Below, one piece after another: positions 44,810 through 48,936 of a DNA stretch of 64,000 bases (the first letter of the stretch is position 1; every line of letters begins with the position of its first letter). Location: assembly GCA_947479085.1 (NCBI GenBank), contig CANJYB010000003.1, positions 124,001 to 188,000 of the forward strand. Reading direction: 5' to 3'. A program made the position numbers and the translations under genes. The notes beneath the pieces were generated by a model that saw only the letters and a list, made by a program, of their open reading frames with translations, was not told the DNA's origin and made no database searches. The DNA is from Bacteroidota bacterium. Lineage in GTDB: Bacteria > Bacteroidota > Bacteroidia > 2-12-FULL-35-15.

Positions 44810-45826
44810 TTAACTGATAAGAATCTCGGTGGCTCCAAAACCATACTTAGCATAGGATGCATCATAGAACTGAACACTATCATAGGCAGAAAGAAGATTT
44901 CTTACCTCTTGCTTTAGTCTAAGCTTACCAACTCCATGTATTACTATCAATTTCCTGTATCGTTCAGCGATAGCAATATCCAAAGCATTTTGAAAGTGTT
45001 TAAGCTGAATCTTTATTATATCTGAATTACTTAAATGATTATAATCTTCTAACAATTCCTCGATATGGATATCAATTTCCATTTCATTAAAATTAGCATG
45101 AGGCTTTGATTTCTTTTGAGTTTCAGTGATAGTTTTCTTTTGAAACATTAATTTGGTTAAATCTGTATTTGGCAAAGAAATAGTTTGTTCATCCTCACTA
45201 TTGAGATGCGAAATAGTTAAAATATAAGCCTTTTCAGAAATAAAGTCGTTTTCTTCAAATGCATTTTCCTTATATAGCTTTACAATTTTTAATTTTTTTA
45301 TTTCACTTACTGGGAATTGATAAGAATGTTCTTTATCATCGAAAAACAATACATCAATTTTTAGATTTGACAATTGTTCAATGTTCTTTTTATCAATAGT
45401 TTCAATTAAAATAGATTCGAATGCTTTACAGCTTCCAGCTTCTAAGGTAACTGATTTTCTGTTTTTCAATATGGAAAAGGTAAACAATGTTTGATAAGGT
45501 GTCTGATTAATAAACCAAACATTCATATTTGAATTCTGAATATCATTACTTTTCTCGGGAGACAATGCAATGTAAATTCCTTCCCGGACTTCATTATCTG
45601 CACTTTCCCCTGTTATAGAGTTTGATTTAACTATGGGTGGAACATCCTTTTTGTCCGTTACTCTTTCTGTTTCTTTATCTTGAATCAATATTAATTCTGA
45701 AGTCAGATAAGGAATTTCAAAATCATCAATGGAAACCTTAACAGTGGATATATTAATTATTCCACTGATTACCCCTTCCCCTTTTTCATTTAAAAATCTG
45801 ACTTTATCGCCTATTCTGAATTTCAT
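44810..45826 (-). CDS. DUF2027 and Smr domain protein
   Basis: A 338-residue protein. The N-terminal ~60 residues (KFRIGDKVRFLNEKGEGVISGIINISTVKVSIDDFEIPYLTSEL) are a KOW/MutS2-like beta-barrel, followed by a DUF2027 middle region (IALSPEKSNDIQNSNMNVWFINQTPYQTLFTFSI). The C-terminal ~85 residues are an Smr domain (EMEIDIHIEELLE ... KLIVIHGVGKLRLKQEV) with a variant H-G-x-G-x-x-x-L core. Smr domains cleave or bind nucleic acids; ribosome rescue or recombination suppression are options. It is common in Bacteroidota. The ATG is 4 bp from the promoter box. Confidence 0.85.
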   Translation of the reverse strand: MKFRIGDKVRFLNEKGEGVISGIINISTVKVSIDDFEIPYLTSELILIQDKETERVTDKKDVPPIVKSNSITGESADNEVREGIYIALSPEKSNDIQNSNMNVWFINQTPYQTLFTFSILKNRKSVTLEAGSCKAFESILIETIDKKNIEQLSNLKIDVLFFDDKEHSYQFPVSEIKKLKIVKLYKENAFEENDFISEKAYILTISHLNSEDEQTISLPNTDLTKLMFQKKTITETQKKSKPHANFNEMEIDIHIEELLEDYNHLSNSDIIKIQLKHFQNALDIAIAERYRKLIVIHGVGKLRLKQEVRNLLSAYDSVQFYDASYAKYGFGATEILIS

Positions 45827-45830
45827 TTTT

Positions 45831-45838
45831 CAAAAGTA
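45831..45838 (-). promoter_or_regulatory. -7 promoter box of the DUF2027-Smr gene, 4 bp before ATG
   Basis: The - strand TACTTTTG is followed by AAAA and then the start codon. This implies a leaderless or near-leaderless mRNA. Confidence 0.5.
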
Positions 45839-45858
45839 AAAGATTAAATCTATTTTCT

Positions 45859-45866
45859 TACTTTTG
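45859..45866 (+). promoter_or_regulatory. -7 promoter box of the phosphatase-family gene, 5 bp before ATG
   Basis: TACTTTTG lies 5 bp before the ATG at 45872 and is divergent from the box at 45831-45838. The two start codons are only 45 bp apart. Confidence 0.5.
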
Positions 45867-45871
45867 TTTTG

Positions 45872-46818
45872 ATGAAAATGAAATTAAAATTCTTTTATTC
45901 TGCATTTTTTTTTTAATTGTATCAATCTATTTCAGTTGTTCAAAGGATGTTCCAACTACTGTTTATAAAACAAGGAATGTAATACTCCTGGTAGTTGACG
46001 GAGCAAGATACACTGAAACCTGGGGAGAGGTGACTCATAAATATATACCACATCGTTCCGCATTATTGCAGGAAGGGGTTTTATGTGACAGATTTTACAA
46101 TAATGGGGTAACTTCTACTAACCCTGGCCATACAGCAATGTGTACGGGAGTTTATCAGAATATTAATAATTCCGGTTTGGAATATCCTATCAATCCTTCT
46201 CTTTTTCAATGCTGGCGCAAAGATTATAAACGGCCTGAATCGGAAGCATGGGTAATTTCAACAAAAGATAAACTGGCAGTTCTCTCCAATTGTACTAATT
46301 CTGAATGGAAAGACACATATAGACCAATGACTGATTGTGGGATAAACGGGCTAGGAACAGGATACCGAGAGGATAGTATTACACTGAGAAAGGTGAAAAA
46401 AACTTTAACCAATTATCATCCACGTTTAATGATTGTTAATTTTAAACAACCTGATGCGTCAGGTCATGCCAATGATTCTGTTGCTTATCTGCAAGGTATA
46501 ATGGATACTGATAACTACATTTATCAGTTATGGTATCAAATTCAAAATGATGAATTTTATAAAGACAAAACAACACTAATTGTTACGAACGACCATGGAA
46601 GACATACCGCAGGACATCTAGATGGATTTGTATCCCATGGAGATGCGTGTGATGGCTGTAGACATATTGAGTTTTTTGGTATGGGGCCTGATTTTAAAAA
46701 GAATTTTGTTTGCTCCACCACATTTGAACAAATTGATATTACATGCACTATTGCTGAACTGATGGGAGTTAATATGCCGTTTGCACAAGGACGGGTAATG
46801 CTTGATATTTTTAATTAA
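45872..46818 (+). pseudogene. alkaline phosphatase superfamily lipoprotein, frameshifted in a T10 tract
   Basis: From the ATG at 45872 the frame reads MKMKLKFFYSAFFF and stops in a ten-T run (45905-45914). One extra T would join it to LIVSIYFSCSKDVPTT, a lipoprotein signal, and then to the long frame: NVILLVVDGARYTETWGE (metal Asp and likely Thr nucleophile), TSTNPGHTAMCTGVY, NFKQPDASGHAN, IVTNDHGRHTAGHLDGFVSHGD. These are metal-site motifs of nucleotide pyrophosphatase/phosphodiesterase-like enzymes. An internal GTG at 46030 would drop the catalytic start. It could be a sequencing error, slippage, phase variation or true pseudogene. Confidence 0.8.
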
Positions 46819-48936
46819 CTATAAATTAAGAACAAAAGCTCCTGAATCAGGCACTGAATAGTAAGATTGTTTTAAATCTGCACATTCTGTTTTCCACTTT
46901 TTAATATGGTACAAGGAATTCGAGGAATCAAATACAATCTCCTTTGCTCTATATAATTTAACTATATCTTTAATTTTTATTCCCGGATTTCCAGAAACAA
47001 CTATAAAGTCAACAGTAAGAGGAGTGATGTTTAATTTTTGTGAATATTTTATAGCATTCTTTTTATTTATAATTATTAGTTGCCTATTGTAAAACTGAAT
47101 TACATTATTCTTTACGAAAAGGGTATTCGTTTTAATAGAGTCGCTTATAATTTCGGAATAGTTAATTCCTAAATCCCACCAATTATGTTTTATATGAAAT
47201 AGTAACTTGCTTTCATCTTTTGCAAAGGCCGTATCCGTTAATAACACATTTGTTTTTGCACTAATAAAATCAATCGCAGAAGTTTTAGGAACATTATAAA
47301 CAATTAATAGCTTTTGATGGTATTCTTTGTATTGTTCTTTTAACAAGGAAGAACAAAGCACTAAACTAATAAATAATGAATAAAAGAGGTAAGAAGCCTT
47401 TCGTTTTGAGAAATACAAAACGAACAGAATGATAATTCCATATATTAACCATGTTTCAAAAACTGTTATTGATATTCCTTGAATTAATGAATGGGGTAAT
47501 TTTTCTATTAGTTGTATAGATGAGTTTAAAAGCCATATTGAAAAATTAAATAATAAAGCTAAGGATTTTACAAGAAAAGGCACTTTGCAAAAAATAAAAA
47601 CAGCAATGCCCATAAACATTATGCAAAAGGAAATGGGTATGACTACATAATTGGATAACATAAAATAGACCGGAAACTGATGAAAGTAATGGAGACCTAA
47701 AGGAAAAGTAGCTAATTGCGCTGCCAATGAGACAGCTGTAAGTTCCCACCATTTTCTAACAATCCAGTTATGATTTTCAAAATTAAACCACGAATGAATT
47801 TTGGGTTGAAGAAATACAATACCAATTACTGCAATATACGAAAGCTGAAACCCAACATCCATTATTAAATAAGGATTCCATAAAAACAACAAAAATACAG
47901 AAGCTGCTAATGTATTATAAATATCACTGTTTCGTTTTGTAGCTTTAGCTATAATTATAAAACTCAACATCGCTGCCGAACGCAATACAGCTGGCGATAA
48001 CCCGGTAAGCATGGCGTAAAACCATATAAAGAGCAACAATAGAAGAGCTTTAACAAGGTGGCCGTATTTGATTTTATCAAGGAAAAATAAAAATGCAAAA
48101 ACAACAATGTATATAATAGTAAGATGCAACCCAGAAACTGAAAGCACATGTAAAGCCCCGGTACTTGCGTAAGCCTGAATAATACCAGCATCCAGTTTAT
48201 CTACATAACCCAGAAGCAATGCCGCACCCACTGCAAATTCATCCCCACTCAGATGATTTTCTTTGAGTATTTCCAAAAAACTTCTCTGAAGCTTATTAGC
48301 ATATACATAAAAAAAGTTCCCCCCATTTTTTTGGGTACTTATCCAATCTCCTCTTTTAATATAAGCCTGTTGAGTTACGTTGTGAAAAGCAAGAAACCTT
48401 TTATAATTGAACTCGCCAGGATTTTGCGGTGGTGGTAATTCTTTAAAGTTGGCCTTCATCATCACTTCATCTCCATATTTTAGTTGTTTAGATAAGGTAT
48501 CTTTTTCCATTGTAACCATTGCCTTACCTGAAGTATTTTCCCATTGAGATCCTTTTTTAATTGCAAGTATTTCCATCATTACCTTAACCGATTTTGGTTT
48601 TTCCAATACCGGATCATTTAATCGTGCATAAACAAATAGATCTTCATCAGAAATAAACTTTGAAAAGTGAGAGGGTGAAAAACGTTGAGTTTTTAAAATG
48701 GTAAATTGGAAACCAGTGACAATGAAAGTTGTTGTGATTAATAATCCATATCCCCAGGAGTTTTTATATGTAAAATTAAATTTAGGAACAATTAAAATAG
48801 TTCCAGTAAGAGTCAAAAGTAAAAGGACAAAATATATTGAATATTTCCAATGAAATGGTAAATAGATAGCCAGAAGTATCCCAACAATAAAAGGAAGTAA
48901 CAAACGTACAAGGGGTTTTGATGACCAGGCATACAT
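46819..48936 (-). CDS. comEC: ComEC/Rec2 family DNA-uptake channel protein
   Basis: A 705-residue membrane protein. The first helices and a DUF4131 region (~1-200) contain LPPPQNPGEFNYKRFLAFHNVTQQAYIK. The competence domain (~220-500) has ALLLGYVDKLDAGIIQAYASTGALHVLSVSGLHLTIIYIV and GLSPAVLRSAAMLSFIIIAKATKR, both ComEC hallmarks. The C-terminal region (~520-705) aligns in position with the metallo-beta-lactamase domain but lacks an HxHxDH site. It transports single-stranded DNA across the inner membrane during natural transformation. Its stop codon directly abuts the convergent phosphatase gene. Confidence 0.9.
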   Translation of the reverse strand: MYAWSSKPLVRLLLPFIVGILLAIYLPFHWKYSIYFVLLLLTLTGTILIVPKFNFTYKNSWGYGLLITTTFIVTGFQFTILKTQRFSPSHFSKFISDEDLFVYARLNDPVLEKPKSVKVMMEILAIKKGSQWENTSGKAMVTMEKDTLSKQLKYGDEVMMKANFKELPPPQNPGEFNYKRFLAFHNVTQQAYIKRGDWISTQKNGGNFFYVYANKLQRSFLEILKENHLSGDEFAVGAALLLGYVDKLDAGIIQAYASTGALHVLSVSGLHLTIIYIVVFAFLFFLDKIKYGHLVKALLLLLFIWFYAMLTGLSPAVLRSAAMLSFIIIAKATKRNSDIYNTLAASVFLLFLWNPYLIMDVGFQLSYIAVIGIVFLQPKIHSWFNFENHNWIVRKWWELTAVSLAAQLATFPLGLHYFHQFPVYFMLSNYVVIPISFCIMFMGIAVFIFCKVPFLVKSLALLFNFSIWLLNSSIQLIEKLPHSLIQGISITVFETWLIYGIIILFVLYFSKRKASYLFYSLFISLVLCSSLLKEQYKEYHQKLLIVYNVPKTSAIDFISAKTNVLLTDTAFAKDESKLLFHIKHNWWDLGINYSEIISDSIKTNTLFVKNNVIQFYNRQLIIINKKNAIKYSQKLNITPLTVDFIVVSGNPGIKIKDIVKLYRAKEIVFDSSNSLYHIKKWKTECADLKQSYYSVPDSGAFVLNL

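Follow-up and report, generated by a model that had tools for sequence, protein, structure and literature searches.

A run of ten T residues at exactly positions 45905–45914 breaks the frame of a phosphatase-family lipoprotein gene in a Bacteroidota genome (G000), as found by inspection of the 64,000-nucleotide stretch of DNA that was analysed (the window). With a probability of about 0.5, we regard the break as a recent slipped-strand inactivation that would have left this dispensable gene, which has been lost repeatedly, with a null or near-null allele. The T-run would have arisen within the Phe-rich hydrophobic signal sequence, where a slipped-strand replication indel would be sufficient to shift the frame in the sequenced population. 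If the organism itself has ten T here, as this reading assumes, little functional protein would be made, and some in-frame mRNA would be expected to leak through by slippage of RNA polymerase at T10. On the same assumption about the base count, the locus has the features of a recent pseudogene: a disabling lesion, intact homologues elsewhere and no conserved recoding.

The interrupted gene and its predicted product

Translation from ATG 45872 yields the peptide M-K-M-K-L-K-F-F-Y-S-A-F-F-F before TAA, in agreement with the original prediction that this frame ends after 14 codons at the T-run. The open frame that follows reads IVSIYFSC(SKD)...VVDGARYTETW, with a lipobox-like IYFSC preceding SKD. 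As had also been predicted, this lipoprotein frame is out of register with the start codon: the leader from ATG to lipobox Cys measures 65 nt, compared with 60, 63 or 66 nt in 15 intact congeneric orthologues. In these orthologues an N-terminal signal and the lipobox Cys lie in the frame of the start codon; in the window the Cys does not. The sequence and the ORF listing were searched for an alternative in-frame start upstream of T10, and no ATG, GTG or TTG was found. Coordinates of all features are given in Table 1.

Table 1. Features of the phosphatase locus in window coordinates
Feature	Position	Strand	Remark
Smr-domain gene (smr; DUF2027 + Smr)	44810–45826	-	divergent neighbour, intact
Promoter box TACTTTTG	45859–45866	+	Bacteroidetes sigma-A type -7 box (TAnnTTTG), 5 nt before ATG 45872
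14-codon frame	45872–45916	+	ATG 45872 is the conserved start; TAA 45914–45916 at the end of the T-run
T10 tract	45905–45914	+	site of the frame break; private to this genome, no equivalent run in 16 orthologues
Open enzyme frame	45916–46818	+	lipobox Cys and whole mature enzyme; no ATG/GTG/TTG before GTG 46030
GTG-46030 ORF	46030–46818	+	mechanical ORF; lacks metal ligand D28, contains nucleophile T68
comEC	46819–48936	-	convergent neighbour, intact

The enzyme frame scored above the gathering thresholds of three curated profiles of the alkaline phosphatase superfamily, namely PF01663 (Phosphodiest; E=7e-13, 49.3 bits, cut-off 23), PF00884 (Sulfatase; E=3.5e-10, 40.1 bits, cut-off 25) and PF01676 (Metalloenzyme; 33 bits, cut-off 24.3). 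The catalytic positions D28, T68, D180, H184, D226 and H227 are invariant in an alignment of 14 sequences. The product of the complete frame is thus predicted to be a secreted lipoprotein of this superfamily (Phosphodiest/Sulfatase). It resembles the branch of type I phosphodiesterases/NPPs and sulfatases in its metal Asp (D28), Thr nucleophile (T68) and the pairs D180/H184 and D226/H227, and an AlphaFold model (pLDDT 87) has a predicted fold that matches the YejM periplasmic domains, NPPs (the Xac NPP and ENPPs) and S1 sulfatases in the PDB. It differs from this branch in its size of only ~300 aa, and its best sequence match in the PDB is weak (E 7e-7).

A product initiated at GTG 46030 would begin at residue 39 of the enzyme. 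We rejected this codon as the normal start, as the metal Asp would be lost and the position is occupied by Pro in the aligned orthologues of G033, G023 and G016. The original prediction had this product losing a segment with both metal ligand and nucleophile; the first part stands, and the second does not. T68 (in TNPGH; codon 46117–46119) aligns with the Thr of the KTFPNH motif of ENPP4, which is the nucleophile, so that D28 would be lost and the nucleophile retained.

The expectation that ATG 45872 carries a well-placed promoter was borne out by comparison, with a TAnnTTTG box followed by an ATG 4–10 nt downstream in 17/17 orthologous loci. In Flavobacterium psychrophilum, start-site mapping places this box at -12 to -5 (PMC9723704), from which we infer a transcription start at ~45871 and hence a nearly leaderless mRNA, with its predicted 5' end almost coinciding with the start codon; in that organism leaderless mRNAs form a minority of 5.5% (PMC9723704). 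The divergent gap between smr and the phosphatase gene is only 45 bp (45827–45871), and the -7 box and the almost leaderless start are common to 17 genomes. In four congeners (G003, G009, G027, G035) the Smr-domain neighbour matches at the N-terminus and the Smr domain only; there it is an open frame of ~205 aa, compared with 338, in which the central DUF2027 part is either absent or not recognisable.

Orthologues, constraint and parallel loss

The comparison set was the genus, with 36 genomes; the family and order ranks contain the same 36 only. The gene is present in 17 of these, including G000, and each of the 16 orthologues uses the corresponding ATG as its start, with the enzyme in the same frame. 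The start regions were compared for the length of the tract, as the original prediction had proposed, and a run of ten T at the equivalent site was found in none of the 16, so that the tract is not conserved at this site.

The closest orthologue, at 79% amino acid identity, is found in G033, a MAG (contig CANIQT010000001.1). It is also broken, by a different lesion: an in-frame TAA replaces a Tyr codon after FQCWLKD. Between G000 and G033, dN is 0.118, dS 1.88 and dN/dS 0.063, and the flanking genes gave comparable dN/dS values of 0.068, 0.096 and 0.072. All ratios were estimated with NG86, as maximum-likelihood values were erratic because of saturated sites. None of 102 positions that are invariant across the intact orthologues is changed in G000, and three are changed in G033. 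By a rough estimate, absence of constraint for a tenth of the G000 branch would have produced ~60 extra nonsynonymous changes. Taken together, the low dN/dS (~0.06) and the unchanged invariant residues indicate that the break is very recent, bypassed, or not real, i.e. an assembly error. The lack of secondary decay is as compatible with an error as with an efficient bypass.

Several relatives have no copy of the gene. G012, the sister of G033 in the Smr tree (support 100/98), has no match anywhere in its genome, and comEC directly adjoins smr; G020 and G021 likewise have no match, and the adjacency of comEC and smr without the phosphatase gene recurs in several further genomes. On the tree, at least five changes of the labels intact and absent are required, a pattern which by itself cannot separate deep losses from gains; ancestral presence is argued by the location between smr and comEC that is shared in both deep clades, and we infer it on that ground. 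The flanking genes have no internal stops, in 32 genomes for smr and in 31 for comEC, whereas 2/17 copies of the phosphatase gene are broken (Fisher p=0.04). The nonsense lesion in G033, the absence from G012 and the uninterrupted flanking genes argue that the gene is dispensable and has been lost repeatedly in the genus.

Homopolymer tracts and the nature of the break

Of the 36 distinct A/T tracts of at least 10 nt in G000, 16 fall within open ORFs, which in 11 cases reach at least 300 aa, and only the T10 at 45905–45914 splits a gene. In the window, one A/T run of at least 10 nt is observed, compared with 5–7 in Markov sequences of the same composition; the occurrence of T10 alone is not above chance, and its gene-splitting effect is the unusual part. 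A second apparent frameshift, at G000:C42:8770-8779 (L089 1501-1510), was rejected, since this T10 follows a GC-rich inverted repeat as the tail of an intrinsic terminator. On the contig + strand, A/T homopolymers of at least 10 nt are mostly T (29 T vs 7 A, p about 3e-4), and T9 likewise outnumbers A9 (133 vs 93), which is odd in that contig orientation should be arbitrary; a counting artefact was rejected using exact-length patterns. At four loci (L065, L077, L080, L084), sense poly-A tracts of at least 10 nt stand right after the start codon, in frame, in long intact ORFs.

The main rival, for which the original prediction had also left room, is a base-calling or assembly error, with a different true tract length and an intact gene, which we consider a substantial but lesser possibility. 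The sole lesion coincides with the longest homopolymer in the window, the remainder of the frame is perfect at the invariant positions and under the constraint described above, and a lone homopolymer frameshift is the expected appearance of a sequencing error: a survey of 1106 genomes expected most singleton frameshift genes that have full-length homologues to be such errors (PMC3711429). Against this, such tracts are as a rule in frame in this assembly, judging by the sixteen other A/T tracts of at least 10 nt in open ORFs, and every other run of 8–9 nt within ORFs of the window is in frame. Homopolymer errors would thus be uncommon in this assembly, bearing in mind that zero breaks in 16 controls are compatible with an error rate of up to 17% per tract (95% upper bound). 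The lesion in G033 further suggests that real null alleles of the gene occur. Under the rule of the same GeneTack survey, a lone frameshift whose homologues are intact is put down to an indel or a sequencing error, and frameshifts that are clustered and conserved are possible cases of programmed shifting or phase variation (PMC3711429). The present case would fall in the former class; it shares with singleton frameshift genes and recent pseudogenes the lone frameshift and the full-length intact homologues in relatives, and no difference from them was found.

That T10 is real and the gene functionally rescued by transcriptional slippage, some mRNAs gaining a U and encoding the full lipoprotein, appears unlikely. 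It would account for the intact constraint in G000, and an A/T run of about nine or more, as is looked for in slippage genes, is indeed present at the frame junction; in transcripts of E. coli and Buchnera, single-base insertions climb exponentially with the length of A/T runs (PMC5574713), so that some in-frame mRNA is likely here. Precedent exists in Blochmannia, in which single frameshifts in polyA/T tracts without rate acceleration were treated as corrected by slippage (PMC3017870), and, as cited in that article, in Buchnera. However, the tract is common to no relative and thus does not look like an evolved site. No slippage-stimulating hairpin was predicted upstream of T10 (z=0.09), a programmed site was not found, and the nonsense lesion in G033 could not be rescued in this way. 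Less probable still is that T10 holds the gene in a low-expression state through low-rate correction by RNA polymerase. The polyA/T frameshifts of Blochmannia (B. vafer) and Buchnera, as described in PMC3017870 and the works that it cites, are similar in having one indel, an otherwise constrained gene and independent losses in related lineages; G000 differs from these endosymbionts in that its genome measures 4.28 Mb, the gene is dispensable in the genus, and the frameshift is unshared with relatives.

The original prediction had also raised phase variation, in which the T-tract would have been selected as a reversible switch that turns a surface lipoprotein on and off, and we consider this very improbable. 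DNA polymerase slips readily on poly-A/T runs (PMC3711429), and the locus resembles the slipped-strand phase-variable genes of host-associated bacteria in its 5' homopolymer, its surface or secreted product and its out-of-frame state as sequenced. It departs from them in that the tract is private to one species, with which a young, species-specific switch would still be compatible, and in that no set of such genes was found: the other tracts of the genome lie in intact ORFs or outside ORFs and reveal no off-frame set of surface genes. A/T tracts of at least 10 nt are no commoner in the window than its composition predicts, and a literature search for phase-variable T-tracts in lipoproteins of Bacteroidetes found none. 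The closest relatives lost the gene by other means; the unrelated nonsense lesion in G033 together with the gene loss in the next relative favours gene loss over a switch. As a feature of this gene, neither phase variation nor transcriptional slippage was supported.

Implications

The case is a caution that, from sequence alone, a 5' homopolymer frameshift in a surface-protein gene mimics a phase-variation switch; here the comparison with relatives revealed a private lesion and parallel loss of the gene in close relatives. Were low-rate correction at T10 to operate, a Bacteroidota genome of normal size would offer an analogue of the endosymbionts' slippage rescue, in a gene whose product is cut by a stop codon in a related species. 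If, as in the recent slipped-strand inactivation that we favour, T10 is real, the same secreted phosphatase-type enzyme would have been inactivated in three ways in three closely related species, which would point to a recent change in the need for this enzyme.
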